64,000 bases of DNA from Eucommia ulmoides (taxonomy: Eukaryota > Streptophyta > Magnoliopsida > Garryales > Eucommiaceae): positions 43,159,429 to 43,223,428 of the forward strand of contig CM028328.1 in the NCBI GenBank assembly GCA_016647705.1, read 5' to 3'. This document shows, in pieces, positions 421 through 48,089 of the stretch. A model generated the notes under the pieces. It was not told the origin of the DNA and ran no database searches. It worked only from the letters and a program-made list of their open reading frames with translations. Position 1 is the stretch's first letter. Each line of letters opens with the position of its first letter. The position numbers and the translations under genes were made by a program.

Positions 421-723
421 CTGATCGATCAACCGATCACAAGAGGATCGATCAACCGATGGGCAATGGCTGGGAATTGGAGAAGCCTATGAATCGATCG
501 GTCAACTGACCAAGAGAGATCGGTCAACCAATGGCTGAGATATAAACTCTCTAAATAGATCGGTCAACTGACCAGGGCGAAAAAATAGCCTGGGGAGCAT
601 CCTAAATCGATCGATCAACGGACCCATGGGGGATCGGTCAACCAACCAACATATAAAAATGACTTGGGCTACAACTTGAAATGATAGGTCGACCGATGGT
701 TCATTTGTCGGTCAACTGACTGG
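421..723. promoter_or_regulatory. Array of paired W-box-like dyads in E1 5' LTR
   Basis: About ten copies of an imperfect dyad around GATCGGTCAACCGATC occur here, many in pairs 22-23 bp apart. Five copies contain GGTCAA, the reverse complement of the W-box core TTGACC. The array ends about 135 bp upstream of a TATA box, so a U3 enhancer role is a reasonable inference. WRKY binding is known for the core motif; nothing here proves it. Confidence 0.6.
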
Positions 724-857
724 GCAATTTCAGTGTTTAAAGATTTTTGGGATCTGATTTAAAATTAGCTGTTACTAGCCATTTTTTGGCTAATATCTTG
801 GAGATATTCTGGGGATTTGAGCATATTATAGATATATCATTCATACTTACATATCCC

Positions 858-865
858 TATAAATA
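858..865 (+). promoter_or_regulatory. Likely TATA box of E1 LTR
   Basis: TATAAATA lies in CCCTATAAATATGG about one third into the LTR, downstream of the dyad array. This is the expected U3/R layout. Confidence 0.55.
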
Positions 866-2292
866 TGGTACACTTATTTTAAGTGTTTCTCAATTTAGTC
901 TATTTTAATACTTCTTATCCTTTTGATTTGAGAATGTGAAATAATTTAAGGACTAAATTGAATGATTTAAAAGTCATATTTAAGTGAATTGAATCAGGAT
1001 TGAGAAATATTGATATATGGGGTTTATATGAGCATTTAAATTTCATATTTTGTGGGAACTAGCCATTACAGGGTCTGTTTCAAATCAGTTTAAATAGACC
1101 TGCACTTTTCACATATCAAAATCATCACTTCTATCAAGAACAATCAGTTACTGATTTTTCTGAGAGTTATTATTCTGATATTATATTAAGAGATTATCGT
1201 GAGATTAGTCTGGTGTTGAAGTTCTTGAGTTAAAGCACTAATTGATTTGGCTTCACTAATTTAAGCTGTTAGCGATACAATTTGCATTATTTCGGTGTTT
1301 TCCTGGTAAGATTTTTCCAAAATTTCATTCTTTATTGTGATTATATATTATTTTGCTTGCTTGGATTTTAGATCTTGTGAAATCGGTTTTTGAACTTTAA
1401 AGTGAATAAAAATTATTTTAAAACAATTTTTGTCGTAACCTGATTACGTGCTTGATTCTGTACTACCTGTTTATTTTATAATCAAATTTTATTTTTCTCA
1501 CTTAGTTCTACACTAATAAATTCGGGACATTAATTGAGTTCAAATTAATTTGAGGTGGTAGAAGCTCCAAGTGGGAAGAAACTTATCGATTTTTGTAATT
1601 AGTGAGTTTTATGCTGATTAGATATTGTTGAAAATATCTAATCAGGAGTAGCTGGATTTCAATATCTTCTTGTAAAGAGATTGAAGTTTAATATTTACCT
1701 AAAGTATAAAAAGGTTATGTTACTCTTTTTCGTGAAAAGAGATAGGTGTGATTCTTCCTAATTAGAATTAATTTAGTGTGATTTGTAATGGTTCCATCCT
1801 TACTAGTGATTAGGATACTTGGAGTGTTTTTGGTGAGGTTTGATTCTTAGCCTAAGTATAAAAGAATTAGGTAAATTTTTAGCTTGTTAAAAAGATAGAT
1901 GTTCTTCCTTAGCCTGTGAAAACAAATTTGTAAAGGTTGATTTTGAGCCTATAAAAGAATCATTGTGTAAAGGTTTGGTTCCCACATGGTTAAAGGAATC
2001 TTAGTGGTTTAATGGGTGAGAATCTCCGTGGGGCTCGGAGGACTAGATTAGCCAAAAGTAATTTGGTGAACCAAGATATATCGATGTGTTATGCATTCTT
2101 ACTTTATTTATTTATTGTTGTTTGGGTGCGTACATAGAACTAATTACACTTATCCGCTACTATATAAACATAGTAATTAATTTAGTATTAAATTAATTAT
2201 TTGAAAATTTAAGTTTTGAAAGATAAGTATTTATTTTAATTTTTATAACTCTCTCATTCACTCCCGTCTTGGGTAGATCATTGGGCCAACAA

Positions 2293-2305
2293 TTAATATC
2301 AAAGT
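2293..2305 (+). other. Primer-binding site of E1 (initiator-Met tRNA type)
   Basis: TTAATATCAAAGT directly follows the LTR end. It is a degenerate match to TTGGTATCAGAGC, the plant copia site complementary to initiator methionine tRNA. Confidence 0.6.
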
Positions 2306-6290: not shown

Positions 6291-6683
6291 TGATTTTGTG
6301 GTTTCCCTTCCCCACTTTTTGAGATGACAAAGGGAGATAATATGTTGATATTTTATTGAATATCTTAAATTAATTGAATTGATTATAAGGGAAGATTTAA
6401 AGGGGAGAACCTAGTTGCGCTTAAAACGAGTTAGTTAATATTTAGGTTTTATTCGCCTAAGCTTTGAATTGTTATAGGGGGAGAACAATGTTGATATGAT
6501 TATGTTATGCTTTATTGAATATCTATAATTGATCATATTTTGTGCTTCGTTGAATATCTTATGAGTTTTTAAATTGTCTTCATGATTACGCTTTAACGAG
6601 TTAAAAAAACATGTCTTAGGATTTAGGGGGAGCGTGGTTATATTTTTAATTTGAAGAAAACATCAAAGTTAATTATTATCATA

Positions 6684-6697
6684 AAAAATGGGGAGAT
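6684..6697 (+). other. Polypurine tract of E1
   Basis: AAAAAATGGGGAGAT abuts the TGTTGATCC start of the 3' LTR, the expected plus-strand primer position. Confidence 0.75.
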
Positions 6698-7157
6698 TGT
6701 TGATCCAAAGATTTTGATGAACAATTGGGTATTGATATTTTTGGTGGAACTAACAAGTTTATTGAGTGTTTCAGTGTAAAAGTTTTATTGTTGATGTTAT
6801 CATGAAGTAATTGCAAAGGATGCTAAGGATGCAAAGAGACGGACATTAAGAAATTGAAGATTCCGAAGAATCTAGGTGAAAACAACTCAAGTCATTTTTT
6901 ACTCTTATTATATCCTGATTAGGATCACACACGATACAAAAAATATTTATATTTATGTGTGTTTTTATTAGGGTCTTAATTAGTTCACATATTTTCTCCA
7001 ATGTGAAATTGAAAAAGAAAACTTGACCTAAGAAATATTAGTATTTAAAATTGATTATTAGTGTTAATTATGTTAACTGAGAAAAGAAATCGGTTAAACG
7101 CTTGAAAACGTTGATGATTGGAGCTGAAATATAATTGAGAATGAGTGATCCAACAGT

Positions 7158-7476
7158 GATCGGTCAACCAATCACAAGAGGATCGGCCAACCGACGGGTA
7201 ATGGTTGGGAATTAGATAAGTCTCTGAATTGATCGGTTAACCGATCAAGAGAGATCGGTCAACCAATAGCTGAGAAGTGAACTCTCTGAATCGATTAGTT
7301 AACCGACCATCGATGATCGGTCAACCGACCAGGGCCGAAAAATGTCCTAGGGAGCATCCTAAATCGATTGGTTAACCGACCCATGGGGGATCGATCAATC
7401 GACTGGCGTATGAAAATGGCTTGGGCTACAACCTGAAATGATCGGTTGACCGATGGTTTATTTGTCGGTCAACTAA
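7158..7476. promoter_or_regulatory. W-box-like dyad array in E1 3' LTR
   Basis: Same array as at 421-723, in better condition. Pairs such as GGTCAACC and GGCCAACC, or GGTTAACC and GGTCAACC, lie 22-23 bp apart, and several contain ACCGACC. Confidence 0.6.
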
Positions 7477-7615: not shown

Positions 7616-10018
7616 TGTAACGATCCGTCCCGGTTTCCCAGGGTCGCTACTCTGGTTTCTCCTATAGAGAATTTCCTAGCCTAAATTATGACTCGTCAAC
7701 TTCCCAATATATAATATTCAGTAAATTTATTGAACGATAGCGATAATTTCTTGTTATCGATTTTACAACGGAAAATATTAAATCTAATAATCACCATTCA
7801 TATAGCACCAATTAAAACCATTCATCTATTTTATATTTAATCCACTCATTTTCAGCACAACACAACGACAAATTTAAAAGTCTCCGGTTTATAATTTAAA
7901 TCTCAATTTTTCTTCATATTTTAACCAAACAATTTATTATCTGATCATCTCAATACCATTTTATATAAAATCGAATATTCAATAATTATTACAACAATTG
8001 CGATAATCAATATTACCGTTTTTGCCAATTACAAAAATGAATAATAATTACAATTTTTACAATAAAAATTCCACAACAAGTCTTCCCTCGTTTCGTCCCA
8101 GCCCTACAATCCAAACACTGTGGGGTTGTGAGCTTACGCTCAGTAGAACTCCAACCCCTCTAATATGTGCATTTAATTAAATGCATAAAATCACGTAATC
8201 ATGCTCGTCACATAATTTTAATATAAACCACATAGGCATGCTCGTCACATAAATCCCGCATCGTCCAACATATTTCACATAATTTCGACAGATAAAAATA
8301 TCGCAACAATATACTAAATAATTTCAAAATCATCAACGAGACAGTTAAATACAATTAAATGCATATATTAAGAGTGACAGGAATTCTACCTTTCCTAGAT
8401 TTTCCGTTTTCTGCGATATGGGTATTTTGTTTTTCATTGGGGTAGTTTGTGAAATTTTCTTTTCTTTTTTCTTTTTCCCTTCTTCTTCCTTCTTTTTCTT
8501 TATCTTTCTTTTTCATTTTCTGCTTCCTGTTCCTGTTTGTGTTTTCTGTTTGCGCCCAGCCACCGCCGACCAATGACACCGCCGATCACACCACTGACCC
8601 ACGAAGACAGAACACTCACGACGCCTAAACGGAACACACCGCTGGCCTCCCACACAGCCCCTACCGAACCTACGATCGAACATACATACACAAAGCCAAA
8701 CCCACATTCTCTCTCTCTAACTCTCCGGCCAACTTCGGCGACCACCCTCTGAGCGTCCATTCATACCTAGAAACTCATATACACACTCCCGATCACATAC
8801 CCACACTAAACACACCCACACAATCGAACATGCATACCCACTTGCGACTCACCGGCTACCGATCAACACATACACACATGGCACACACAACACACACTGA
8901 TCACACACATATACACCACTGTTCACGTATCCACCACTAAACATACACATACCCACACGCAGCAGACACACACACACACACATGCAATGCTCTCTCTCTA
9001 AACTTATCGATCGGCTGAATGACCGACACCATCCACTGGCGACCGAACATACCTATTTGACCAAACAATTCTAATCAAATACCCACACCGATCAACACAC
9101 ACGCACACATACACCGACTGCTCTCTCCCTCTCTCTAACCCACCGTCGGCGATACCCCACCGGAGTAAACGACTACCATCAATAGAACACCCACATGCAA
9201 CGAACGAGCAGAAAACACACACACACACACACACTCATTTACCTGATGTCAGCGACGATCATACACACGCACACCCATACGAAACACGCCGACGATGCTG
9301 AATGGACCCCCCTCTCCGTCGCCGGTCAGAAAATGCACACATGCGCGCGCGCACACACACACACACACTACAACAATCGGCAATATATATCCACACAGCT
9401 GACCAACCACCCAGCGTTGATCACTTATTGATAGACAACGCACACCACCGGACCGAAAGATATACCCACACACGATTATCGGTGAGTCATAACATCGCCG
9501 CCGACGACACGATCAACCGACTGCCATGCTGAAAGAACACCCTGAACACATACGCACCATAACGCCATAGGATCACCGACCACCAAACACTCACCAGTTA
9601 ACCCACCTCCGATCCTCTCTCTTCCTTTCTCTCTCTTTCGCTCGTTCTCTGTTTCGGTTCTCATTCCCTTCCTTCCGTGTGTGTGCATGGGTTTATATAT
9701 TTATGAACAAGATAAAAATGCCGTGTGTACTCCATTTGCTATTGTTAATTACAAGTGTATATATATGTAAATGCGTGTGTGATCATCGACTGGCCAAGTG
9801 GCCTCCCTACTTCACCGCCTTCTACATATGTATGTGTATGTGTATATATATATATATATATACACATGTTTTCATTATTTCAATTTGGCCCCCAAACTTT
9901 TTAAATCAATAATAATTTACATTATCAATCCTGTTATAATTTGAATTATTATAAAATACGGCTTAATAGAAAATTAGGGTATTTAAAATTGTTCGAATAT
10001 AAAAATCGGGGTCTTACA
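7616..10018. repeat. Solo LTR, probably Ty3/gypsy, inserted in E1 3' LTR
   Basis: A 2403-bp block begins TGTAACGATCC and ends GGTCTTACA. It is flanked by an exact 5-bp duplication TCCCT (7611-7615 and 10019-10023). The uninterrupted sequence exists in the E1 5' LTR, which proves insertion. TGTAAC...TTACA ends are common in plant gypsy LTRs. No internal region is present, so it is a solo LTR. The middle (about 8540-9670) is CA/TC-rich with ACAC runs, and its open frames are low-complexity artefacts. A TA run lies at 9841-9864. The strand cannot be assigned firmly. Confidence 0.85.
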
Positions 10019-11444
10019 TCCCTATAGATATGGTACACTTATTTTAAGTGTTTCTCAATTTAGTCCTATTTTTTTCATTTGAGAATGTGAAATAATTTAA
10101 GGACTAAATTGAATTATTTAAAAGTCATATTTAAGTGAATTGAACTAGAATTGAGTAGAATTTATATATGGGGTCTATATGAGCATTTAAATGTCATATC
10201 TTGTGGGAATTATCCGTTAGAGGGTTTGTTTCAAATCTGTTTAAATAAACCTGTGTTTTTCACATATCAAAATCATTACTTCTATCAAGAACAACCAGTT
10301 CCTGAGCTTTCTGAGAGTTATTATTCTGATATTATGCTAAGATATTATCAGGAGAATATTCTGGTGTTGAAGTTCTTGAGTTAAAGAGCTAATTATTTGG
10401 CGTCATCGATCTGAGCTGTCTAACGATACAATTTGCATTCTTTCAGTGTTTTCCAGGTAAGCTTGTTCCAAGATTTCATTCTTTATTTGTGATTATATAT
10501 TATTCTTCTTGATTGGATTTTAGATCTTGTGAAATCGTTTTTTGAACTTTAAAGTGCATAAAAATTATTTTATAACGATTTTTGTGGTAATCTTATTACG
10601 TGTTTGATTCTATGCTACCGGTTTATTCTATAATCAGATTTTATTTTTCTCACCTAATTCTATCACTAGTAAATTGGAGATATTAATTGAGTTTAAATTA
10701 ATTTGAGGTGGTAGAAGTTCCGAGTGGGAAAAAACTTATCAATTTTCGTAATTGGTGAATTTTGTGCGGATTAGATATTGTTAGGAATATCTAATTAGGG
10801 GTAGCTGGGTTTCAATCTATTCTTGTAAACAGATTGAGGTTTAAATTTACCAAAAATTTAAAAAGATTAGGTTACACTTTTCCATGAAAAGAGATATGTG
10901 TGATTCTTCCTGATTATAATTAATTAATTGTGATTTGTAATGGTTCCATCCTTACCAGTGAAAATGATACTTGGAGTGTTTTTGGTAAGGTTGGATTCTT
11001 AGTCTAAGTATAAAAAAATTAGGTTAATCTTTAGCCTGTTAAAATGATAGAAGTTTTTCCTTAACCTATGGAAAGGAAATTGTAAAGGTTGATTCTGAGT
11101 TTATAAAAGAATCATTATGTAAAGGTTTGGTTCCTACATGTTTAAAAGAATCTTAGTGGTTTAGTGGGTGCGAATCTCCATGAGGCTCAGAGGACTGGAT
11201 TAACCAAGAGTAGCTTAATAAACTAGGATATATCGAGGTGTTCTGCATTATTACTTTGTTTATTTATTGTTGTTTGGGTGTGCACCTAGAACTAATTACA
11301 CTTATTCACTGCTACATAAAGATAATAATTAATATAGGATTAAATTAATTATTTAAAAATTTAAGTGTTGAAAGATAATTATTTGCTTTAATTTTTATAA
11401 CTACCCAATTCACCCCCCTCTTGGATAGATCACTGGGCCGACAA

Positions 11445-12561
11445 TAGATATGCCTCTAAAAGGGACATTTAGACCCCATATAACATATTTATTCAATTCT
11501 GGTGTATTTCATTTAAAAATAACTTTTAAAACTCTCAAATAAGTCAATAAAATATTTTTTAATTATCAATTACAAAGATAAAAAGTATTTAACTAACTAA
11601 ATTGAGAAAATAATTTAATATGTGAACCAAATCAGTATAATTTCAAAACATATGGACCATATCTTCAACAAGATTGGATCCCCCTAATTTCTCCCTTGGA
11701 ATAAAAAAAAAACGACTAGTTTTTTACCAGAAGACCAGGATCCTCGAAATCTCAACCGACATAGTCGATTTTATTAACCCTGGCCGGTCGGTTGACCGAT
11801 TGTTTCAGCATGCAAACTAGGCCAAAACCAAACACTCAGTCGGTTGACCGATCTCCCCTTGGTCGTTTGACCGATTGGTTCAAGGAGTTTTCCCAGCCAA
11901 AACCCAGCACAGTCGATTGACCAATTGCCTTTTAATCGGTTAACTAATTGGTTTAGAGACTTCTACTTTTCCACACTTAGACCCATCAGTTGACCGAACC
12001 CTTCTTGGTCGGTTGACCGATCAATACAGGATCTACATAATTTGTTCTGAAACCTGACTATTTCAATCAGTTGACCAATCATTTTCTGATCAGTTAACCG
12101 ATTGATACTGGTTGGTCAATCCCTTCACCAATTTCTGTTCCAAAACTTAACGTTTAATTTAATTAACTGATTGTTTTTCTCAGTTAACTAATTTAACCCT
12201 AAACTTCAACTTTAAACATGATTTTCACTTAGGTCAATTTTCATTTTCAATTTCACATAAGAGCACATATTTAATCACTAATTAGGATCATAAAATTCAT
12301 TATATTAACACACAAAAATATAACTCAAAGTATCGTGTGTAATCCTAATTCGAATTTCATTAAGAGTACAAGAGTATTGAGTTGTTTTTCCCTAATTTCT
12401 TCAAGAGCTTCAATACTCTTAATTTCTTCAATGTGCATCTTTGCACCCTTGATTTTTTTTCAATCTTTAAATGGAACTCTTTTTCTGAAACACTCAAAAA
12501 ATACATTAGTTCCACAAAAAACATCAACCTTTAATTGTTCATCAAAACCTCAGGATCAACA
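11445..12561 (-). repeat. E2 3' LTR, part inside the window
   Basis: Matches 34897-36069. On the minus strand it begins TGTTGATCC at 12561, preceded by a purine tract (AAAAGAGGAGAT on the minus strand, 12562-12573). E1 was inserted at its left edge. Confidence 0.9.
11783..12180. promoter_or_regulatory. W-box-like dyad array in E2 3' LTR
   Basis: By eye, eight TTGACC cores (either strand) occur between 11785 and 12120. TCGGTTGACCGA is the clearest copy. The two best pairs are each exactly 23 bp apart, start to start. Confidence 0.65.
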
Positions 12562-16296: not shown

Positions 16297-18611
16297 TGTT
16301 GGCCTAGTGAGCTACCCAAGAGAGAGGTGAATGTGGTAGTATTAAAAATTATCAGAATATAACATTTAAAAAAATCAAACAATTAATATTATCCTAAAAT
16401 TAATTATTATCTTTTATACCAGCAAATTATGTGTTATCAAATAGGGGCACACCCAAACAACAAAATGTAAACAATATAAATAATGCAACACGCAGAAATT
16501 TATACTAGTTCACCAAGCTACTCTTGGCTAATCCAGTCTCCCGAGCCCTACGGAAAGTCGCACCCACTAAACTCAAGATCCTTTTAAAAGTAGGAACCAA
16601 ACTCTCAAAATGATTATTTTCGTAGGCTCAGAATCAACCTTTACAATTTCTTTGCATAGGCCAAGGAATAACCTCTATCGTTTTACCAAGTGGAAGATTA
16701 ACCTAATTCTATTACAAGGAGAATCACGACTTAATTCTTTTTATACCTTAGGCCCAAGAATTAAACCCCACACAAACACGCTCCAAATATCTTTTTATCC
16801 AGTAAGGATTGAATTTTTACAACTCACTCACAATTCTATAAAAGAAGAATTAAAACCTAATATTTTTATACTCTAGGTAAAGATCAAAATCTCAATCTCT
16901 TTACCAGAAGAGATTGCAACTAGCTACCCCTCATTAGACAATCCCAATAGTATCTAATCCACACACAACAAACCAATTACAAAAATTGATATGTTCTTCC
17001 CACTCGGAACTTCTATCACCTCAGATTAATTAATATTCAATTAATGTCCAGAAACTAGTGATATAAATAAAGTGAAAAAATTCAAAATTTGATTTTAAAC
17101 AAAAAAAAGGGTATCAAGCAATTTAGCACGTAATCAGATTTTTTAAAGCAATTGTTTCAAAAAAATATTTTTCAATAAAAATTCGGAAAACAATTTCAAA
17201 GATCAACTTCCAAGAAATAATAATAGAAAATAAGAAAATAACTTCGAACAATCTCACCAGGAATCCACCGAAAGAATAATGATTAGAATAACAATGACAC
17301 TTTTGATCGATAGTAGCAATAATCCACAACAAATATTTCTCAAGAACAAATCTCAAGAAAGATCTCACAATGCACTCAGTATGATTTTAGAATGATGACT
17401 CTCAGAAAGTTCAGGAACTGAATAACTCTTGAATTTTGATTGATTTGGATTATTGGATTTTTTAAACCTAAAAAACGCAGATTTATTTATAGAGGTTTAT
17501 AACAAGCCCTCTAACGGCTAGTTACCATATATCATGACAAATAATTACTCCATAAACCCCTTTATATCATTAAGACTCAATCCTAGTATAATTCACTTAA
17601 AAATATCTTTTAAACATTCAATTTAGTCCCTCAAACTTTTACTAAATCTCAAGTAGATAAGATAGAAATAATTACATGTACCAAATTGAGAGATATCTAA
17701 AATATTTGAACCATATCTATAGGAATATTCAAATAGGAGTATCATATCTTAAATATATTCATATCCCTAGGATATCTCAATCAATTAAACAAATAACGGC
17801 TAATTTTTTGAATAAAATCTGAAATTCCTCAAAACTTGAAACAGGTCGTCGGTTGACCGACCAACACCCACTGGTCGACCGCCCAATTCAGAATATAACC
17901 CAAGCTAAAAACTATTTGTCTATTGGTCGACCGACCAACCTTTATCTGTCGACCAAACGATACAGAAACTTTCACAAGTTGACCTACCTGTCGACCTAAT
18001 GATCTAGAGAGTTCATCCTCTAAGCACAGGTTGAGTTACTTGTCGACCGAACAATCCAGAGACTTCCATAAGTCGACTCACCTGTTGACTGAATGATCCA
18101 AAGAGTTAGCCTTATAACCTCAAGTCGACTTATCAATCAACTGACCATTGCTGGAACACTTCTCTCAATTTGATTTTAATTCATTTTCTTCGACGTTTTT
18201 ACCCTTTTAACCAATTTCTTTTCTCGGTTAGCTCCACTAAATTTTTAAATTGAATTTTAATTAATTATCAATGTTTATTTTTCAATTACACATTGGAGCA
18301 AATAATTTAACTAATTAGGATCCTATAAAAAGCACACATATTTGTAAAAAAATATTTTGTGTTTTTTTGTAATCCTAATCGGGAATCATTAAGAGTAAAA
18401 ATTTAACCTGAGGTATATTCCCTAGGTTCTACAATTTCTTCAAACTCTTAGTATCCGTCATCTTTGTCAGTCTCTTTAGTATTTAGCATCCATTTCAACT
18501 TTTTCATGATAATATCTTCATTGGAGCTTATAAACTGAAACACTTAATAAAATCGTTAGTTCCACCAAAAACATCAACATTTAATTGTTCATCAAAATCT
18601 TAGGATCAACA
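16297..18611 (-). repeat. E3 3' LTR
   Basis: A 2315-bp LTR, TGTTGGCC...GGATCAACA in plus orientation. A purine tract (minus strand AAAAAAGGAAAAGATT) lies just to its right at about 18612-18628. A TATA-like CTATAAATA on the minus strand lies near 17484-17492. Confidence 0.9.
17845..18150. promoter_or_regulatory. Dyad array in E3 3' LTR (TCGACC variant)
   Basis: Repeats of GGTTGACCGACC and GGTCGACCGACC. Pairs are spaced 22 bp, plus one pair 12 bp apart, alternating with a GATCCAGAGAGTT-type spacer. This is a diverged form of the E1/E2 array in the same LTR position. Confidence 0.55.
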
Positions 18612-20999: not shown

Positions 21000-22326
21000 T
21001 GATAGGTGTAATTTACCTATCTATTTCCAAACTGAACTTGTTAGTTTTCGAGTGTTACTATAGTATTTTAATACGTTTTTAGTTGTTTTGTAATAAATCA
21101 GGTATGTGGGATGAAAATGGATGAAAACGGATCATAAACGATCAAATTGGATCAAGAGCGGCAGAAGAACGGTGGAAAAAGAACAAAGAGACCAAAATTC
21201 AAACATACAGCCCACCACCGTGGTGGTCAAAATAGAGAGAAGGGCCTAAACTCTCTGCAAATCCACCACCATAGCAGTGACACTGCCAACATGCCCACCA
21301 CCGCGGCCGTCACTCTGCACAGATTTAAGATATTTTTTTAGATATTTTTGTTCCCTATTTCTTCGCCCTCTCCTCTATTTCGGCCATTCAAGACCCCTTA
21401 GGAATATAATAGATTAGAGAGAGGTTTTGGGGAGTGCTCAACAATTCCAAAGGAGAAGAACACAACACAAAGAAGGAGAAGCGATCATTGAATGGTTTTA
21501 GCGGCAAATCTTCAAACAACGGCTAGTTTCTTTCGTTTCTTTCTTTATTTTCTTAACTTCGGTAGTTTGTTGAACATGTTTAGCTCATTTCTTGTTGTAT
21601 AAATAGTTATGGCCATTAGCTAAATAGATTTTGTCTAGATATTAATAATATTTATAAAAATGTGGTTTATTTGATATCGGTGTTTCGTTAATGGTTGTTC
21701 TTTGTTATTTGATTGTGTTTACTGTTATTCTTCGATTATATGCTTGTTTAGATATATTGAGAATATGGGGGTTGACACTCGGGAGAGGTAACCCCGAATT
21801 CGGATTAGGGTTAAACACAACGCGACAATCTAATAACCCGGGAGGGAATTAGAAAGTGTGCAATCAATGATGTTGGGGCAAGACTCATGTGACTATGTGT
21901 TCTAAAAAATGCTAGAAGGGAACTTCGACGTTAACGCGAAGTCACATATTCGCTCGCTTTACACTCGAGAGAGGGAGTGAGCAAGTTTACGATAAAGAGA
22001 TTGTCAGATAAGTCAAACACCATTAACGTAAGTCAAACGAGATCAAACACATTTAAGTAAATGAAGTTAATCCCTAGATAATCCATCCCCCTAAAACATC
22101 TCAATTTAGTTTATATAGTATAATTAGGTAAATTAGTATTTAGTTTAGTATATTTAATTATAAAAATTACAATTTTTATTTCCTAGATAAAATTAGATTA
22201 TGATAATTACGGTACTCGACAATAATCTCAACCAATCCCTATGTAAATGACAACCCTTACTCTTTCCACTCTACAAAAACTTGACCCATACACTTGCAGT
22301 GAAAATAGAGACTTAATATTCCACCA
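21000..22326 (+). repeat. Gypsy A 5' LTR
   Basis: Begins TGATAGGTGTAATTTACC and ends ATTCCACCA before the primer site. It matches 25018-26408. A GC-rich palindrome array lies at about 21195-21320. Confidence 0.88.
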
Positions 22327-25017: not shown

Positions 25018-26408
25018 TGATAGGTGTAATTTACCTATTTATTTCTAAACCGAACTTGTTAGTTTTTGAGTGTTATTATAGTATTTTAATACTTTTTTAT
25101 TTGTTTTGTAATAAATCAGGTGTGTGGGGGTGAAAATAGATGAAAACGAAACATAAACGATCAAATCGGATCAAGAGCGGTAGAAGAACGGTGAAAAAAA
25201 AAAGCAAAGAGGCCAAAATTCCGAACCTATAGCCCACCGCCGCGGCAGTTAAAATACAGAGAAGGGCCTAAACTCTCTGCAAATCCACAGCCACAGCTGT
25301 GAGATTTACCGTCATGGCGGTGAAACAACAGAAACTCTCTACATCCACCGCCGCAGCGGTGACACTACTGACATACCCACCGCCGCGGCGGTCACTTTGC
25401 ACAGATTTTGGATATTGTTTTAGATATTTTTATTCCCTATTTCTTCCTCCTCTCCTCTATTTTGTCTATTAGAGACCCCTTAGGATTACAATAGATTATA
25501 GAGAGGTTTTGGGGAGTGCTCAACAATTCCGAAGGAGAAAAACACAACATGAAGAAGGAGAAACGATCGTTGAACGGTTTTAGCAGCAAATATTCGGACA
25601 ACGGCCAGTTTCTCTCATTTCTTTCTTTATTTTTTAACTTCGGTAGTTTGTTGAGCATGTTTAGCTAGTTTCTTGTTGTATAAATCATTATGCCCATTTG
25701 CTAAATGGATTTTGTCTAGGGATTAATAATATTTATGAAAATGTAGTTTATTTGATATTTGTGTTTCGTTAATGGTTGTTCTTCGTTATTTAATTGTGTT
25801 TACCATTATTATTCGATTATATGCTTATTTAGATATATTGAGAATATGGGGTTTGACACTCGGGAGTGGTAACCCCAAATTCAGACTAGGGTCAAACACA
25901 ACGTGACGATCTAATAACCCGAGAGGGAGTTAGAAAGTGTGCAATCAATGACGTTGGGGAAAGACTCATGTAACTATGTGTTCTAAAAAATGCTAGAGGG
26001 GGACTTTGGCATTAACACGAAGTCACATATTCGCTCATTTTATACTCGGGAGAGGGAGTGAGCAAGTTTACGATACAGAAATTGTCAGATAAGTCGAACA
26101 CCGTTAATATAATTCAAACGAGATCAAACACATTTAAGTAAATGAAGTTAATCCCTAGATAATCCATCCCCCTAAAATATCTCAATTTAATATATATAGT
26201 ATAATTAGGTAAATTAGTATTTTAGTTTAGTATATTTAATTATAAAAACTGTAATTTTTATCGCCTAAATAAAATTAGATTATGATAATTACGGCACTCG
26301 ACAATAATCTCAACCAATCCCTATAGAAACGACAACCCTTACTCTTCCTACTCTACTAAAACTTGACCCGTACACTTGCGGTGAAAGTGGCGACGTAATA
26401 TTCTGCCA
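25018..26408 (+). repeat. Gypsy A 3' LTR
   Basis: Begins TGATAGGTGTAATTTACC after a purine-rich tract and ends TTCTGCCA. It is about 60 bp longer than the 5' copy, mainly in the GC-rich palindrome array. Confidence 0.88.
25222..25400. promoter_or_regulatory. GC-rich palindrome array in gypsy A 3' LTR
   Basis: Four to five imperfect copies of the palindrome CACCGCCGCGGCGGTG are separated by AT-richer spacers containing CTCTCTGCA. The array precedes the likely start of transcription. Function unknown. Confidence 0.5.
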
Positions 26409-29933: not shown

Positions 29934-31318
29934 GCAAATAAGAAAATAAATTGGAACAATCTCACTAGAAATCCACTGAAAGAATAATGATTAGAATAGT
30001 AATGACACTTCAGATCGGTAATAGCAATAATCAACATTAAATGTTTCTCAAGAACAAATCTCAAGAAAGATCTCACAATGCACTCAGTATTATTTTAGAA
30101 TGATGACTCTCAGAAAGCTTAGGAACAGAATAGCTCTTGAATTTTGATTGATTTGGATTAATGGATTTTTTAAACCTAAAAAACGCAAGTTTATTTATAG
30201 GGGTTTAAAACAAGCCCTCTAAAGGCTAGTTACCATATATCATGACAAATAATTACTCCATAAGCCCTTTTATATCATTAAGACTCAATCCTGGTATAAT
30301 TCACTTAAATATATCTTTTAAAACATTTAATTTAGTCCCTCAAACTTTTACTAAATCTCAATTAGATAAGATAGAAAGAATTACATAGATCAAATTGAGA
30401 GATATCTAAAATACCTAAACCATATCTATAGGAATATTCAAATAGGATTATCATATCTTAAATATATCCATATCCCTAAGATATCTCAATCAATTAAACA
30501 AATAACGGCTAGTTAAAGACTAGTTTTTTGAATAAAATCTGAAATTCCTCAAAACCTGAAACAGGCAGTCAGTTGACCAACCAATACCCACCGGTCGATC
30601 GCCCAATTCAGGACGTAGCCCAAGCCAAAAACTATTCGTCCTTCGGTCGACTTCCCAACCTTTATCTGTCGACCGAACGATATAGAGACTTTCACAAGTC
30701 GACCTAACGATCCAGAGAGTTCATCCTCTAAGCACAGGTCGACTTACTTGTTGACCAAACAATCCAGACAATTCCACAAGTTGACTCACCTGTTGACCGA
30801 ATGATTCAGAGAGTTAGCCATATAACCTCAGGTCGACTTATCAATCGACTAACCATTGTTGGAATACTTCTCTCAATTCGATTTTAATTCATTTTCTTCG
30901 ACCTTTTTTATCCTTTAACCGATTTCTTTTCTCCGTTAGCTCCACTAAATTCTTAAATTCAATTTTAATTAATTATCAATATTTTTTTTTTCAATTACAC
31001 ATAGGAGCAAATAATTTAACTAATTAGAATTCTATTAAAAATAAACATATTTGTAAAAAAACATTTTATGACGTGTGTGATCCTAATTGGGAATTATTAA
31101 GAGTAAAAATTTAACCTGAGTTGTTTCCCAAGGTTCTTCAATTTCTTCAAACTCTTAGTATTCGTCATCTTTGTCAGTTTCTTTAATATTTAGCATCCAT
31201 TTCAACTTTTTCATGATAATAACTTCATTGAAACTTATAAACTAAAACACTCAATAAAATCATTAGTTTTACAAAAAACATCAACATTTAATTGTTTATC
31301 AAAATCTTAGGATCAATA
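29098..31318 (-). repeat. E3 5' LTR
   Basis: Aligns with 16297-18611 over most of its length and ends at GGATCAATA before the CTTAT target duplication. It contains an AAT triplet run (29870-29933) absent from the other LTR and a dyad array (30568-30855). Confidence 0.88.
29870..29933. repeat. AAT microsatellite, about 21 units
   Basis: Perfect AAT repeat inside the E3 5' LTR. The matching site in the 3' LTR (about 17217) has only about two units, so it expanded after insertion. Confidence 0.95.
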
Positions 31319-32089: not shown

Positions 32090-34787
32090 TTTTGGCCCAG
32101 TGAGCTACCCAAGAGAGGGGGTGAATTGAGTAAATATAAAATTTAATCCAAATAAAGAACTTCAAAAATTAAATAATTAATTTTACCTTAAATTAATTAT
32201 TATCTTTATAGTACTTGAATTTTCAAACAATTAATTTAATTAATTAATTAATTTATCCAAAATCAATTATTATCTTTTTATAGTAGCGGATAAGTGATAT
32301 AAGCTCTAGGTTCACACCCAAACAATACAAAATAAAGTAAAGAAAATAAATAATACAGTACACATCGATATATCTTGGTTCACCAAGTTAATCTTGACTA
32401 ATCCAGTTCTCCGAGCCCCATAGAGATTCGCATCCACTAAACCACTAAGATTCCTTTAAACAGGTAGGAACGAAACCCTTATAAAAATGATTCTTTTCGC
32501 AAGCTTAGAATTAACCTTTACAAATTCCTTTTCCTAGGCTCAAGAATAACCTTATCTTTTCACAGATTAAAGATTAACCTAATTCTATTACAGGGAGAAT
32601 CACAACCTAATTTTTTTTTATACCTTAAGCTTAAGAATTAAACCTCACAGAAACACTCCAACTATCATTTTCCCAGGTAAGGATGGAACATTTACAAATC
32701 ACTCATAATTGATCCTAATCAAGAAGAATCACACCTAAGTTCTTTTCAAATGAAAAAGAGTAACCTAACCTTTTTGTACTTAGGTAAAGATCAAACCTCA
32801 ATTCTCTTTATCAGAAGAGATTGAAACCCAAAGCTACCATTGATTAGACACTCCCAACAGTATCTAATCTGACACACAACTCACTAATTACAATAAATTG
32901 ACAAGTTCTTCCCACTTAGAGCTTCTACCACCTCAAATCAATTTAAATTCAATTAATGTCCCGATATTTACTAGTGATAGAATTAAGTGAGGAAAATAAA
33001 AATTTGATTATAAAATTAATACGGGTAGCACAAAATTAAGCATGTAATCATATTATCACACAAATCATTTTAAAAGATTTTTTATGCTTTTAAAATTCAA
33101 AAACGATTTCTCATACAATCAATTAACTAAGCATGTGATAATAACAATAAATTCAACTAAGAAATGCTTGGGATGATCTCAACCAAGAAACATAAAAATC
33201 TGATTATAATAGATATGAGTAGCACACAAATAAGTACGTAATCAGATTTTCAACAAAAATCGTTTTAAAATATTTTTATGCAATTTAAAGTTTAGAAAAC
33301 GATTTCACAATATCTAAAAATCCAAGCAAGCAAAATAATATTTAATCACAACAAAGAATTAAAACTTGGAACAATCTCACCAGAATATCACCGAAAGAAT
33401 GAAGATTAAATCATGACAAAACTTAGATCGGTGACGCCAAAATTCACAATACTTTTTCTCAAGAAAAAATCTCACAATTAATTGCTCAATATAATCTCAG
33501 AAGGATGACTCTAAAAAAAATCATGAAATCAAGGTTGTTGATAGAATGATAACTCTCAAAATGGCTAACGAACACCTAGTTCTTGATATCTTATCTATCT
33601 ATTATGTGAAATCCGCATGTCTACATAAAGTCACTTGAAACAAGTCCTATAACAGTAGTTTCCACAAGATATGTCATTTAAAATCACCTATAGACTCTCT
33701 ATATTGATTCCTTTCAATCCTAGTATATTTGACTTAATTATAACTTTCAAAACATTCAATTTAGTCCCTCAAAGAATTTTCAAACACAAATAGATAAGAT
33801 AGGAAGTATTAAAAGGACCGATTTGAGAAACACTTTAATTTCATGTACTAAATCAATATGGATATTCAAATAGGAGTATCATATCTTAAATATATCCATA
33901 TCCCTAAGATCTCTCAATCAAGTAAACAAATAACAACTAGTTTTTGAATAAATCCCGAAATTCCACAAAACTTAAAACAACATGGTCGGTTTACCAGCTT
34001 TTGCCCATCGGTCGACCGATCGATTCAGGATACTAGCCAAGCCAAAACTTTTCGCCCATAAGTTGACTGCCCATTAAATATCTATCGACCGAACGATTCA
34101 AAGAGTTTCATAAGTTGACTTACCTATCAACTTAACGATTCAGAGAGTTCATCTTTTAACCATAAGTCGACTTACTTGTTGACCGAGAGATTCAAAGAGT
34201 TTGTCTTACTTTCATAAGTCGACCTACCTGTCAACCGAACAATTCAGGGACTGAATCGTCTTCCCACCTCCATTCCATCGGTTGACCAATCCATGTTGAT
34301 TAGTTGACCGACCCTGCTAGAACACCTCCCCTTAATTAATTTTCTACTAAATTTCTTCAACGTTTTTACTCTAACCGATTTCTTTTCTCGGTTAACTCCA
34401 CTAAATCATTAAATTCAATTTTTATCTTTCTTAAATCAATATTTCTTCTTCAATTATATATAGGAGCAAATATGTTAGTTAATTAGAATCCTATTAAAAA
34501 CATGCATAATCATAAAATTATTTTTGTGTCGTGTGTGATCCTAATTAGGATACATTAAGAGTAAAAATAGATTAGAGTTATTTTCAACTAGATTCTTCGG
34601 AATCTTCAATCTCTTAATATCTGTCTCTGCATCCTTCACAATTTCTTCATGATGTTATCGTCTCTGCATCTTTTATAATTACTTAATGATACTGTCTCGA
34701 ACTCTTTAAACTGAAACACTCAATAAATACGTTAGTTCCACCAAAAACATTAACATTTAATTGTTCATCAAAATCTTAGGATCAACA
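32090..34787 (-). repeat. Solo copia LTR inserted in E2 5' LTR
   Basis: A 2698-bp LTR of the same superfamily as E1-E3, with ends related to TGTTGGCC and GGATCAACA. It is flanked by a perfect 5-bp duplication ATAAC (32085-32089, 34788-34792). It has no internal region, so LTR-LTR recombination is inferred. It is longer than its relatives partly because of a tandem copy of about 190 bp (about 33000-33190 and 33198-33385). The dyad array lies at 33983-34310. Confidence 0.9.
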
Positions 34788-34792: not shown

Positions 34793-36069
34793 TCTTAGAA
34801 AAGTTTAGAAATTGATGTTTTTTATATGTTTTATCTAATTTTCACAGGTCTATATATATAGATTGAGATCAAGCCTTTTAACGGCTACTTTTTAAAAGAT
34901 ATGCCTCTAAAAGGCAACTTTAAACCTCATATAACATATTCATTCAATTTTGGTATATTTCATCAAAAAATAACTTTTAATACTCTTAAATAAGTCCATA
35001 AAATATTTCTCAATTATCAATCACAAAGATAGGAAGTATTTAACTAACTAAATTAAGAAAATAATTTAATTTGTGAACCAAATCAGTATAAATTCAAAAC
35101 ATATGGAGCATATCTTTAACAAGATCAGATCCCCCTAATTTTTTCCTTGGAATCATAAAAAAATGGCTAGTTTTTTACCAGAAGACCAAGATCTTAGAAA
35201 TCTCAACTGAAACAGTTGGTTGACCGAAACCTAGCCTGTCGGTTGACCGATTAATTCAGCATATAAACTAGGCAAAAACAAACACACAGTCAATTGACTT
35301 ATCTCCCCTTGGTCGGTTGACCAATTGGTTCAGGGAGTTTACCCAGCCAAAACTTAGCACAATTAGTTAATTGATTGTCTTCCAATTGGTTAACCGATTG
35401 GTTCAAAGACTTCCACTTTTTCACTCTTAGACCCATCAATTGACCGAACCCTTCTTGGTCAGTTGACCGATCGATGCAAGATCTACATAATTTTCTCTGA
35501 AACCTCATTGTTTCAATCAATTAAGTAATAATTTTTTGATCACTTGACCGATTGATGCTGGTTGGTCAATTCCTTCACAAATTTCTGCTCCAAAACGCAA
35601 CGTTTAATTCAATTAACCAAGAAAAGTAATCAGTTAATTGACATGATTTTCACTTAGGTCGATTAACCGATTGCTTTTCTCGGTTAATTAATTTGACCCT
35701 AAATTTCAACTTTAAACATGATTTTCACTTAGGTCAATTTTCATTTTCAATTTCACATAGAAGCACATATTTAATCACTAATTAGGATCTTAAAATTCAT
35801 CATGTTAACACACAAAAATATAACTCATTGTGTCGTGTGTGATCCTAATTCGGGTTTCATGAAGTGTATACGAGTATTGAGTTATTTTCACCTAATTTCT
35901 TCATGATCTTTAATACTCTTTATTTCTTTAATGTCCATATTTGCACCCTTGATATTTTCTTCATGATACAATCTTTAAATGAAACTCTTTTTCTAAAACC
36001 CTCAACAAACACATTAGTTCCACTAAAAATATCAATCTTTAATTATTCATCAAAATCTCAGGATCAACA
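34793..36069 (-). repeat. E2 5' LTR, third piece (LTR start side)
   Basis: On the minus strand it starts TGTTGATCC at 36069. It matches the 3' LTR part 11445-12561. The dyad array at 35212-35690 has pairs 23 bp apart. Confidence 0.88.
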
Positions 36070-36466
36070 TCAAGACAAAACAAAATAATAAAGAAACTTC
36101 ATATCCTGCCTTACACTCTTAGTCTAAAAAGGATAAGACTAATTGGAAATCATGCCTTACAAATCATCAAATAAAAGTCCCAAATTAAAATTAAAAGACA
36201 TTAAATGAACAAATAAGCTAAAAATCATGTGTCTCGTGTCTAGGCCCATTCAGGTTCATGCCTAAGCCCATTCATTTGCCTTGATGAGATTAATTAGGCC
36301 TTGATCGTCATTTAGTCCTAATTTGAGCTTTATCATTTTAGATTCAACCCAAATTTCTAAAATTAGCCTATTTAGTGCTTCTTTAATGTTCTTGGATTTT
36401 GCCCTAGTAATAGGCCCAGTTGAAATATGCAGCGGATCCTTTGATGGTGATTGTTGGTTCTCATCA
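36070..36466 (-). repeat. Chromovirus LTR remnant, target of E2
   Basis: Shares order and wording with the chromovirus LTR at 46756-47630 (CTTGCCTTACAAAT, TTGCCTTGATGAGAT, GCCCTAGTAATAGGCCCA, ending TTCTCATCA). E2 was inserted into it. The other part should lie left of the window. Confidence 0.8.
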
Positions 36467-37579
36467 TTTTGTATATTATATTTCTTCTTTTATAAATTAT
36501 GTCTTTAATTTATTTATTTTGAATTTAATGTTTCTGTATTATAACAAAATTTAATGTCTATATATTATTTTAGTAATTTTCGTAATTTTTGTGTTCATAA
36601 TTTATGAATATTATATTTATTCTTTTATATTATTTTCTTTAATTTAATTTACATAAATTTAATATTTTTTTAGAATTATTACTAAATTAAATATCCATAT
36701 ATATTATTTCTATAATTTTCATAATTTAATAATTTAATATTATTAATAAGTTTAATGTTCGTATATTATTTCTAATCTTTTTGTAAATTTAATATTTATT
36801 TATTATTACTAAATTTAATTTTCACATATTAGTTTTTTCGTAAATTTAATGTCCATAACTTCTTTATATTATTTTTCAATTTAATTTATATAAATTTAAT
36901 AGCTTTCTATTGTTACCAAATTTAGCGTCCATATATTTTTTTTATAATTTTCATAATATGAATTATTTTTATTATTAGTAAATTTAATATCCATATATCA
37001 TTTCTATAAATTTAATATTTCTTTATTATTATTAAATTTAATGTTCACATATTCTTTAATAATTTTGATAAAATTAACCTACATAATTTCTATATATTAT
37101 ATTTCTTCTTTCATGTTATTTCTTTAATTTAATTTTTAATACTTCAATATTATTACTACATTTAATGTAAATACATTATTTCTAGAGTTTTAAAAATTTA
37201 ATATCCATAATTTTCATATATTAATTTTTCTCTTTTATATTATTTATTTAATTTAATTTCATAAATTTAACATTTTAGTATTATTACTAAATTTAATATC
37301 CTATATATTATTTATAAATTTTTTGTAAATTTAATGTCCATAATTTATGTATATTATATTTTCTCTTTTATATTATTTTTTAAATTTAATTTTTATAAAT
37401 TTAATGTTTTGGTAGTATTACTAAATTTAACGTTCACATATTATTTTTATAATTTTCGCATATCATAGTTTATCTTTTATATTATTATTTTCTATTATAA
37501 TTATTGTAAATTTAATGTTTCAATATTAACGCTAAATTTAATGTAAATATATTATTTCTATCATTTTCATAAATTTAAT
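36467..37579. repeat. Degenerate AT-rich tandem array, left part
   Basis: Repeating blocks built on AAATTTAATGTCCATA, TATTATTTCTATAATTTTC and TTTTATATTATTTCTTTAATTT recur at about 110-135 bp. It is non-coding and satellite-like. The array resumes at 39698 after a solo LTR. No matching family recognised. Confidence 0.7.
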
Positions 37580-39697
37580 TGTTGGCTTCTAGATCTACCA
37601 AAGAGTGAGGGTGAATTAGGTAGTGATAAAAATTTTAAATAATTAAATTGTCAAACACACAAGTTATTGATTTCCCTAATTGATTATTATCTTGTAATAT
37701 AGAGAAAACGTATTTAACTAAGTGCACAACCAAATAACAGAAAATAGATAAGCAGGACACGATGATTTATCTTGGTTCGGCAAGCTACTCTTACATAGGA
37801 ATTTTGCAATCCACTAATCTTCTAATTCATTTTTCAAGTAGGAAACAAACCCTTACAATCCTTTTTACATGTTTAAGACTAACCTAATTCTTTTCACAGG
37901 CTCAGAATCAAATATTTACAACTTTTTCTTTTCACATGCTAAGGAAGAACCTTATCTTTTTACCAAACTAAAGACTAACATAATTCTATTATAAGAAGAA
38001 TCAAAACCTAATCATTTTCACCTGCTAAAGATAAAACCTGACTACCCTAATTAGACACCATCCCAAATATGTTTAATCCACTCACACTTACTAATACCAA
38101 AAAACCAAGTTTCTTCCACATGAACTTCTATCACCTCAAAACAATTATGCTCAATTAATGTCCCAAATACTATGTGATAGAATTACGTGAGAAAATTAAT
38201 CTGATTTATCTCAATTAAAGCACATAATATTATATAATCATATTTCACATGCAACAATCATTTCTTGAGATCTGCGAGTAATTCAAACTAGAAAACGATT
38301 TTTCTAAAAAATAGTCCAAGTAATCAATTAGATCATATAAGAAAATTACATAAATTAATTTGGAAAGATCTCACTGGATATCTTGAAAATAGATAAGATA
38401 GCTTAATGTAGTATAAAAATCAGTGATGAAAACTTTTGCACGCTTCGGTCAACAATACTTTCAAAATCACTCTCTTAGAAATATTTCAAAAAACTCACTT
38501 TCTCTTTTAAAGCAAAGGATAATTTTTCTTGATTAATTAAAGTTGAAAACACAAGTCTCTTTTTATAGATTTCAAAACAAAAGACCTTAAATGACACTTT
38601 AAGCCCCATAATAACATACTATTAAAATAGATATATTTAATTTAGAAATACTCTTTGAAAAGCTTGATTTGGTCCCTAAAACTTCTTTGATTAAAAATTC
38701 TTAAATATAGTAAGTAGTTTTACCAATTCAACTCTTATAATTAATTAATATAAGGAACAATTAATTAGGATCTTAATAATATATGATATATAATGACAAT
38801 ATACTCAAATCCCCAAAAATTTTATTTTCCAATCATTCAAAACCATAGGATTTGGGTAAAAGATAATGAAAATCGAAACAATTAAGTTGAATGAATCTGT
38901 CCCAATCGGTTGACCACCGATAATTTGGTTGATCACGAATCTGCAGAGTTCAAAAATCTGACCATTGTATGCTTTTTGTTGGTCAACCGCACATTCGATT
39001 GGTTCAACGATTCTACCAATAGCCTTCTCTCTCAATTTTCTTCAAGCTACTGTTTACGTTAGTCGACCGACCCATTTCGTCAGTTGATCAAATTGACCAT
39101 TAGTTTCCTCACACATTTTCTTTCAAGCTATTGTTTCTATTACTTGACCGACCTTTTTCGTCGGTTGACTGAATCGACCAAAAACTTCTCATTTTATGTG
39201 TTAAAAATATTTTCTTAATTCAACATTTTATCAAAAAAAAAATTTTAGGAGTTTAACATTTTACAAAATCTTTTTAGGATCTTAAATTTATTACTTTTGA
39301 CAATAACACACATAAGATTACTCATTTTCAAGTGTCGTGTTTGATCTTAATTGGGTTGCATTAAGAGTATAAAAGTGTTGAGTTGTTTTACCTAAGAATA
39401 CAAAAAAATTTCAATGCTCCAAAGAATCTTTAATATTTTCACTTTGCATCCATCTTGAATATCGTATAAAATCTTGTCTTGTAAATCTTCAACGATTAAC
39501 TATTTTGATTCAATCTTTTTTTCATTTAAACACATGGGACTCTTAATCTATATTTTTTTATTTAAACACATGGAACTCTTAATCTATCTTTTTTTTTCAT
39601 TTAAACACATGGTACTCTTAATCTAAAACTAGCCAATAAACCCATTAGTTCTATAACACTCAATGTTTAATATCCATCAAAACATCTAGGGTCAACA
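37580..39697 (-). repeat. Solo copia LTR in the AT-rich array
   Basis: A 2118-bp block, TGTTGGCTTC...GGGTCAACA, with a perfect 5-bp duplication TTAAT (37575-37579, 39698-39702). Internal layout (dyads at 38905-39175, TTAAGAGTATA near the LTR start) matches the other copia LTRs, so it is the same superfamily but a diverged family. A short triplication of an ACACATGG-ACTCTTAATCTA unit lies at about 39525-39625. Confidence 0.88.
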
Positions 39698-40910
39698 TTA
39701 ATGTCCATAATTTTTAAATATTATATTTTTTAGATTATTTATTTAATTGAATTTCTTTAAATTTAATATTTTAGTATTATTAATAAATTTAAAGTCTACA
39801 TATTATATATATTCTCTCCCCCCCTCAATTATAAACAAAATATTGTCTCTCTTTAATTAGGTATAAGATATATAAAGTGAAAAATATAAATACACATTTT
39901 ATATTTATGTTAATTTTTTTAATTAATATGAATCATTTTTTATCTCTGAAGACAAATTACGATTGAGATTTGTTTAAAAAGTTTATGCCCATCTTGTTTT
40001 CTTTATAGACTAGAGTAATATCCATGCCTGGAGGCATGAGTGTAAAAAATTGAACATAATTTTAATATTATTTTAATTAGTTTCTGTAAATTAATATTTT
40101 AGTATCATTAATTTAATGTTCATATATTATTTCTATATTTATTGTAAATTTAATGTTCATAATTTCTCTTTATAGTGTTTATTTAATTTAAATTCCATAA
40201 ATTTAATGTTTCATTATTATTACAAAGTTTGATATTTATATGTTATTTTTACAATTTTTGTAAACTCAATGTTTATAATTTTCGTATATTAGATTTGTAT
40301 TTTTATTTTTTTTATTTAATTTTTAATATTTCAGTATTATTACTGAATTAATGTTGATATATTATTTCTATAATTTTTATAAATTTAATGTCCATAATTT
40401 TAGTATATTATATTTTCCCTTTTATACTATTTCTTTAATTTAATTTCTGTAAAACTAATGTTTGAATATTATTACCAAATTAATGAGCATATATTATTTC
40501 TATAATTTTCATGAAGTTAATGTTAATAATTTTTCGTATATCATATTTTATCTCTTATATTATTTTTTTTAATTTAATTTTTGTAAATTTAATATTTTTA
40601 TACTATTACTTATTTTAGTGTCTATATATTATTTCTATAATTTTCATAAATTAAAATTCATTATTTCCATATATTATATTTTTTCATATACTATATTATT
40701 TATTTAATTTAAATTTTATAGACTTAATATTTCAGTATTGTTAATAAATTTAAAATTATATTATTTTTATATTTTTTTTAAATTCAATGTATACAAGTTC
40801 CATATATCACTAAATTTAATATCTATATATTATCTCTATAATTTTCATAAATTTAATAAAATTTTATTATTACTAAATTTAATGTTCATATATTATTGGG
40901 TTTTTTTATT
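39698..40910. repeat. Degenerate AT-rich tandem array, right part
   Basis: Continues the 36467-37579 array with the same blocks (TAAATTTAATGTCC, TATTATTTCTATAATTTTCAT). The whole array is about 2.3 kb without the insertion. Confidence 0.7.
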
Positions 40911-42168
40911 ATTTAAAACAAATTTCACACTCTCTTTCCTTAATGAGCCTTTCAAGCAAAAATATTATTATTTAATCCTCTTTTTAATATTGAGTCCTTT
41001 GATAGTTAGATTAATTAAATTAATTAATAAAGAGACAATTGTAGACACCGTATTTTGTCCCGCCTAATCAGTGTCTAAATGAAAGTAGAAGTTCATATAC
41101 ATTTTAAACTATGGTTTAAAATGAATGAATTTCTATCTTACATCACACTGGCCAATACCAAAAAAAAAAAAAAAAACAATAACATAAAATTATCAAATTT
41201 GACTGAATTCGGTATAAGTAAACGTTTGGGGTTGACCTCGAAATTCCTAAAGTTAAGGAGAACTAAGATGACATTATTAAATGTTGATTTTCATTGAATC
41301 ACCTTTACTATAAATAAAAATTAGTTACTACCCTTTAATTTAAGAAAATTTCACCAATTACCCTTGTTACCTGTTTTAACCCCTGAAACATTTACTATCG
41401 CCGGTTTCATCTATTTGACACCAAAAATATTTCTTTAAATATCTATTTAAATTTGTTTAAGGCTTTAAAGAGTATATCTCAACCTTTTTCATTTTACGAT
41501 ATGAGTGGGTGATTATCATCTAATTTAACCTGTACTGTCCCTATTCATTTATGTAATGCAAAGAGAGAGGATTTTGTGCTTCGGCCTTGATTGGAAGCTT
41601 TGTAGGATTGATTTGAATTTGATTTGAAGAGGATTTGGAATAGAATTCTTCATTTATTATTTGGTTTTCTCTTAAACCCTAAGTTTGTATTTTTCAAATT
41701 CTTATTCAATGATAATCTTTTATATTCTCAACTAAATCATGGAAATGTATGCATTCAAGTTTGTTATGATGTCACCATGCTTTTTTTTTTTTTTTTTTAA
41801 TTTACCTTTGGTTGTGTGAAATTCAAAGAAACTGCATTGGGCATTCTTGGAGTTAGGGTTTCTTCTATTTTGTGATGGTTGTATGTTAGGTCTATTTTGT
41901 AAGATCTGTGATAGTTGAATTTTGGTTGTGTTAAAAATTTATAGTACATAATTTATTTTTGCATAATCTTTGTTATAATAGAGGTCAGTCTTTTTCGACT
42001 TATTTTCCTTCTTGCGAACCATGGGAACGTTTAGCACCTCAAGGAGCAAATCTCATTTTGTTTAGGGTTCAAGCAGCATTTAATGGATTTGAGGATTATA
42101 TTGAAGTATATGTCACCACAAAAGAAAAGTACAAGTAATTTATTTAGATTTTACTTCTCCTTTTTATA

Positions 42169-45296: not shown

Positions 45297-45519
45297 AATA
45301 GTGATAGGTGTGATCTACCTACATATTTCCAAACCAGTTTTGTTAGTTTATAGTAATTTTTATATTTATTTTATTATGTTTTAATTAGTTTTTATACTTT
45401 TTGTATAAATCAGGTGTGTGGGGTGAAAAGATAGGAAACTGGAGCGAAAACGATGAGATCGAACAAAAAACGGTCGAAGAACGGTGGAAAAACGCGCAAG
45501 GTGGCAATATTCTGAAAGA

Positions 45520-45712
45520 AGCCCACCGCTGCGGTTTCCAGACCTTCGTCACGGCGATGAAAATGCAGAGAATGACCTATTCTTGCTAGACACTCACCGC
45601 CTAGGCGGTGAAACTATAGGATGTCATCCTAATCAACCGCCGAGGCGATAAGCCAACTAACATACTCAGCACCGCGGCCATAAATCCCTTTGCCGCGACG
45701 GTGACCTCTGCA
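45520..45712. promoter_or_regulatory. GC-rich palindrome array in gypsy B 5' LTR
   Basis: Imperfect copies of CACCGCNNNGGCGGTGA (for example CACCGCCTAGGCGGTGA near 45597) occur four to five times, ending about 40 bp upstream of the TATA box at 45754. The 3' LTR has the same array at about 53365-53570. The position suggests a U3 element. Confidence 0.5.
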
Positions 45713-45753
45713 CAGCTTAGGATATTTATTAGATATTTTTGAGATATTTTGCC

Positions 45754-48085: not shown

Positions 48086-48089
48086 TTTT

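Follow-up and report, generated by a model that had tools for sequence, protein, structure and literature searches.

Decaying arrays of palindromic boxes in the U3 regions of nested Sirevirus-like LTR retrotransposons of Eucommia ulmoides

The window analysed here, a stretch of 64,000 nucleotides from Eucommia ulmoides (contig CM028328.1, positions 43,159,429 to 43,223,428), is AT-rich, with a GC content of 0.328, and nested LTR elements make up much of it. Element E1 lies on the forward strand, with LTR A as its 5' and LTR B as its 3' LTR (83-86% identical, in two pieces, by self-alignment); element E2 lies on the reverse strand, and its LTRs, Ea (3') and Eb (5'), are 85% identical in self-alignment. 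LTRs C and D, 82% identical by the same measure, are taken as the putative pair of one element, and F and G are additional LTR copies. LTR B measures 2338 bp once an insert is subtracted: 2403 bp at 7616-10018, starting with TGTAACG, ending with TTACA and flanked on both sides by TCCCT, interrupt it between its box array and the TATA region, and resemble a solo LTR from a different family. Other repeats were seen alongside. An LTR-like pair at 21000-22321 and 25018-26403 (85%) belongs to a separate element nested in E2, without boxes; another, at 45304-46755 and 53156-54608 (88%), encloses a third at 46756-47630 and 50192-51072 (91%), and a Retrotrans_gag ORF (48090-48914) lies within the region spanned by the outer pair (45304-54608). 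Two related AT-rich tandem arrays (36461-37583 and 40051-40925, with periods that include some of roughly 110-135 bp) flank an LTR fragment, H, and 61247-61652 is taken up by tandem repeats, likewise AT-rich, of units resembling AATTCAATTGAA.

The elements look like Sireviruses (Ty1/copia), old and decayed, because of their terminal polypurine tract with AT/TG, their linker polypurine tracts, candidate decayed primer-binding site junctions, copia domains and reverse transcriptase motif. The end of the 5' LTR of E1 and its primer-binding site (2290-2305, forward strand) differ from the published Sirevirus junction at 4 of 16 positions; with as many as 4 mismatches in 16 allowed, this junction, CA/ATTGG/TATCAGAGC, has two candidate matches, in each case at an LTR end: 2290 (+) and 15950 (-). 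The polypurine octamer AGGGGGAG is found exactly four times in the window, twice in the E1 linker (6476-6483, forward strand, and 6625-6632), giving E1 the several linker tracts of Sireviruses, and E2 has copies with one mismatch only. At 6688-6699 (forward strand) an octamer with one mismatch is followed by an exact AT/TG where the 3' LTR begins (6698), the terminal arrangement of Sireviruses; C and Ea retain the AT/TG, with octamers two and three mismatches off. Pfam recognised copia domains in all three of the E1 and E2 pieces searched, and the reverse transcriptase reads DDIIFGSTN in E2 and DYIIFGSTN in E3, which we take to be the Sirevirus-type motif.

C-rich stretches at the LTR ends, such as the integrase-signal-like one at 11410-11424 (forward strand, 19 bp short of the end of LTR B), were also counted as a Sirevirus sign, a partly circular one: the pattern was built from such stretches, and its four matches (0.91 expected) include two at mapped LTR ends (11410 and 57284, hence circular), one near the expected end of F (32111) and one elsewhere (56785). 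An ungapped search for the inverted repeat that is published for Sireviruses around the junction of polypurine tract and 3' LTR did not plainly recover it: one of three junctions had arms at 6673 and 6737 (71%), and none spanned the other two. The gag-pre-integrase piece had no relatives in viral_contigs, which says little since that collection is not of plant genomes; the RNaseH piece had none in genome_contigs and viral_contigs, nor had the two-box DNA pattern described below in viral_contigs, these collections likewise not being of plant genomes.

The original prediction placed repeated arrays in nine stretches, and boxes are present in all nine, most sparsely in G (58703-58895), with three. 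On the forward strand, the array of LTR A occupies 421-723 (9 boxes, from 425 to 719) and that of LTR B 7158-7476 (10 boxes, with five pairs 22-23 bp apart). On the reverse strand are those of C (11788-12101; 9 boxes), its putative partner D (35216-35691; 10 boxes), Ea (17849-18144; 8 boxes, five with a CG centre), Eb (30569-30800; 5 boxes and one more at 30911-30922, making 6) and F (33986-34311; 8 boxes, one 12-bp pair included), together with three degenerate boxes in G (58708-58782) and a degenerate array of 5 in fragment H (38906-39172), whose strand is inferred from the adjacent LTR piece.

These numbers are far above those of shuffled sequence. With up to two mismatches, TCGGTTGACCGA has 68 strand matches in the 64 kb, against a mean of 1.75 and a largest value of 7 in 100 dinucleotide shuffles. 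Read in element orientation the box is TCGGTYRACCGA, which with up to three mismatches has 78 sites in the nine U3 segments (11 in A, 12 in B, 10 in C, 11 in D, 8 in Ea, 6 in Eb, 9 in F, 3 in G and 8 in H); shuffled segments had means of 0.36-0.88 sites and at most 5. The array boxes discussed below (n = 68) are those left after excluding 10 of the 78 that fall outside positions 400-900 of their U3 segments. At least eight copies thus lie in the upper half of LTRs A, B, C, D, Ea and F, as in Sireviruses, and fewer in Eb, H and G. Further, 54 of the 58 boxes found window-wide at up to two mismatches lie inside the arrays or nearby in the same U3s (over ranges slightly wider than those originally named); the other four are scattered (5730, 9509, 52326 and 59901), none of them within the three other LTR pairs noticed in the window.

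In self-alignment, all but one of the nine stretches occupy matching U3 places in LTRs whose aligned pieces are 66-86% identical to one another, so that these eight are one inherited feature and not independent recurrences. The ninth (38905-39175) is a diverged LTR fragment: only the piece adjacent to its array (37885-38263) aligned with the other LTRs, the array itself did not, and H was left out of the U3 alignment. A search for tandem repeats picked up parts close to F (34106-34246) and to G (58785-58873) and no array for A, B, C, D, Ea, Eb or H; our guess is that it missed them because the units have diverged. Rfam, at gathering thresholds, had no matches within the window. Just upstream of the array, at 341-365 of LTR A (forward strand), an inverted pair of half-boxes (TTAACTGAGAAAAGAAATCGGTTAA in A) stands around GAAAAGAAA; it is recognisable in all eight aligned LTRs, most altered in G, and when windows were scored for conservation in two sets, each of five LTRs, it ranked 16th of 811 and 44th of 819. 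Such scores along the aligned U3 are highest in the first 30 bp or so of the LTRs (6698-6725).

The consensus over 54 boxes with up to two mismatches is a palindrome with the CGG-CCG core of Sirevirus motifs; in single array boxes the left CGG is intact in 39 of 68 and the right CCG in 23 of 68. By our count from the column table of these 54 boxes, of 65 departures from the consensus 46 replace C by T or G by A, the pattern that decay of methylated cytosines would give, and the paired cells of the two arms hold no sign of compensatory change (224 against 230.7 expected). The two central bases are CA in 34 of the 54 boxes, TA in 9, CG in 8 and TG in 3, and they are distributed unevenly: CA is found in 27 of the 38 array boxes of A-D, CG in 13 of the 25 of E, F and G (8/14, 3/8 and 2/3, respectively). 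It is the arms, not the centre, that the lineages share.

This distribution bears on the reading under which the arrays were first described, that of a stress-inducible WRKY (W-box) or DREB enhancer with paired sites on one helical face, which we now think improbable. The CA centre common in A-D does make an antisense W-box, which WRKY proteins could bind; among the 68 array boxes 32 have TTGACY intact, and the DRE-like core predicted in several copies does occur, as RCCGAC, confined to 16 of 68. Outside evidence leans the same way: the W-boxes of the EVADE/ATCOPIA93 LTR in Arabidopsis are targets of WRKY factors, according to the part of a review available to us (PMC12786077), and comparison of Sirevirus motifs with PLACE gave mainly stress-related sites, as the available text of that study has it (PMC2829016). 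Against this, a CG centre breaks TTGAC, and TTGACY is not retained across lineages among the 68 array boxes (10/19 in A and B, 13/19 in C and D, 4/14 in E, 3/8 in F, 0/3 in G and 2/5 in H); because it survives in fewer than half of them and because CG centres are so frequent in E, F and G, WRKY as the reader common to the families is not supported.

The spacing of the boxes speaks against the same reading. Of 69 successive spacings, 27 are of 20-23 bp, 15 of 50-52 bp and two of 12 bp; the pairs 22-23 bp apart and the occasional 12-bp pairs that had been described are thus there (extra 12-bp partners in Ea, Eb and F surface only at four mismatches), but "two helical turns" would be 21 bp. Phasing strength was R 0.45 at 10.5 bp, the best value being 0.64 at 10.0 bp, and with each spacing class jittered as one event the phasing is no better than chance (p 0.41), so that helical spacing was rejected. 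What accounts for the 22-23 and 50-52 bp distances is the duplication of a unit some 73 bp long that holds two boxes, since the long spacers are homologous: those of the same LTR have a mean similarity score of 0.034 against -0.235 when shuffled (sd 0.029, 12 pairs), and the short spacers are less alike (-0.270 against -0.393, sd 0.029, 42 pairs).

The period of some 73 bp and the homology of the long spacers would also be seen if the arrays were passive minisatellites, functionless products of tandem duplication by slippage or template switching, and here the fate of the boxes matters. Within insertions, boxes differ at 17/108 positions between A and B, 33/132 between C and D and 17/107 between Ea and Eb, and spacers at 28/187, 38/273 and 29/247 (transitions making up 55 of 67 box and 69 of 95 spacer differences), so that decay after insertion is no slower in boxes than in spacers. 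Between insertions, with boxes defined in one insertion and compared between two others (G was not used for defining them), the pooled difference is 0.331 for boxes and 0.439 for array spacers, and boxes are the lower in 86 of 96 triples, which share sequences. Duplication alone does not predict that boxes should differ less than spacers of the same unit, although the contrast may owe something to alignment and to box selection. In direct pairs of insertions boxes fall below array spacers in 8 of 9 (F-G, at 0.449 for boxes and 0.333 for spacers, is the exception), but they are less diverged than the 5' flank in no more than 5 of the 9, which makes this a contrast with hypervariable spacers rather than with U3 at large and is to that extent what a minisatellite would show. 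In addition, boxes were selected for resembling the consensus, and the alignment is partly anchored on them; the comparisons therefore suggest, without firmly establishing, that boxes were maintained between insertions, and we regard a wholly passive origin as unlikely.

The position of the arrays is consistent with a part in transcription. The TATA-like site named in the original prediction, T1 (CTATAAATA, 857-865, forward strand), does lie about 130 bp beyond the array of LTR A (137 bp past its last box), but it reads TATAAAT in that LTR alone of the eight aligned; it is TATAGAT in B, Ea and Eb, TATTGAT in F and G and TATACTG in C and D. Downstream of it lies T2 (1089-1097, forward strand), which reads TTTAAATAG in A. 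Of the seven LTRs that extend this far (C does not), four match TATAWAW, namely Ea and Eb with TATAAATA and G and D with TATATATA; A, B and F do not. By arithmetic T2 falls near 0.49 of the 2338 bp, close to mid-LTR, and is the likely promoter. The arrays are upstream of both sites, so that the placement claimed for them, upstream of the likely transcription start, holds whichever of the two candidates is used to predict that start. They are richer in GC than the 5' flank (0.378-0.493 against 0.232-0.292), with an observed/expected CpG of 0.82-1.29 that drops in nine of nine segments when the boxes are removed; by this contrast and by T2, they resemble the CpG-rich Sirevirus arrays with a mid-LTR TATA downstream. 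A putative enhancer-like role is reasonable, because the dyad boxes lie in the U3, are common to families and are upstream of both TATA sites. Of the shared modular enhancer first proposed, then, dyad boxes common to the copia U3s remain, and the helical pairing and the WRKY reader do not.

Alternatively, the arrays may act as RNA: U3 transcripts would form hairpins that lead to small RNA and silencing, as has been proposed for maize Sireviruses (PMC10760457, PMC5311732, in the portions available). This is the least improbable of the alternatives, though still a doubtful one. Array folds of A, B, C and Ea have z of -3.11, -4.21, -2.92 and -1.30, and in a second set of folds, covering the nine segments, the array z is lower than that of the 5' flank in seven. 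These values are modest, however, and depend on the run (-3.11 or -1.67 for A); G is positive, the flank folds equally strongly in C and Ea, and some folding is inherent to any array of palindromes.

We consider it probable that the boxes are the palindromic repeated motif of the Sirevirus (Ty1/copia) lineage, a cis-regulatory array now decaying; the arrays are of a kind known since 2010 and not a new paired WRKY enhancer. In living elements, a dimeric host DNA-binding protein would have sat on the CGGT...ACCG arms, the array would have controlled LTR transcription, and duplication of the two-box unit would have altered the number of sites; WRKY proteins could have bound in A-D, yet not in a manner common to all lineages. 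There is a slim chance, too, that while the arms were kept and the two central bases switched (CG being frequent in E, F and G, CA or TA in A-D), the host reader changed, for instance by gain of a W-box, with the architecture of the array retained. If so, how the enhancer is read would itself be evolving and would set sister families apart. This switch of centre among related lineages is the only point that merits further work.

Among published systems, the Sireviruses are the closest. A literature search with CGGTCGACCG, retrotransposon and LTR had PMC2829016 as its sole match; GGTCGACCGA brought up no retrotransposon among the titles listed, and Sirevirus with WRKY no title on these boxes. 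In the available text of that study, Bousios et al. (2010; PMC2829016) describe palindromic repeated motifs in 13 Sireviruses, with a CGG-CCG core in 12 of 13. Each element is said to carry at least 8 copies, most of them in the upper half of the LTR, and these make up CpG islands that precede a mid-LTR TATA; the classic copia set of that study lacks them. A binding site for a single factor common to the boxes was not found there, and promoter experiments were said to be still needed. The present arrays are alike in all of the following: palindrome, CGG-CCG, many copies, upper LTR half, richness in CpG and position upstream of a mid-LTR TATA. The Vitis motif CGGTCGACCG equals the inner ten bases of our CG-centred box, and Barbara TCGGTCYCACCGA and Osr8 CGGTCAGACCG have arms in common with our boxes (all from the same portion of PMC2829016). 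They differ from those motifs, as far as the published description available goes, in the CA centre common in A-D and in the ordered unit of two boxes in about 73 bp. Dimensions differ also: the LTR is about 2.3 kb (published maximum 1.68 kb), the array begins 463 bp from the start of LTR B, or 373 bp counting the upstream site (published 200-400 bp), and it precedes T2 by 353-369 bp (published mean, CpG island to TATA, 37 bp).

In the parts available, the accounts of maize Sireviruses (PMC10760457, PMC5311732) describe LTR palindromes that are alike in clustering in cis regions and in predicted RNA structure, but their sequence, CACCGGACNNNGTCCGGTG, differs from that of our boxes, and small RNA mapping belongs to the maize elements. 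EVADE/ATCOPIA93 (PMC12786077, in the portion at hand) is likewise a copia LTR with W-boxes; here the W-box stands inside a palindrome and is lost in some lineages. Thus, the array itself is expected for Sireviruses. What the nest adds is a set of diverged lineages from a single host that carry the array in the same place and differ in their box centres, and LTR pairs that serve as a control for decay, so that the lineages can be compared directly.
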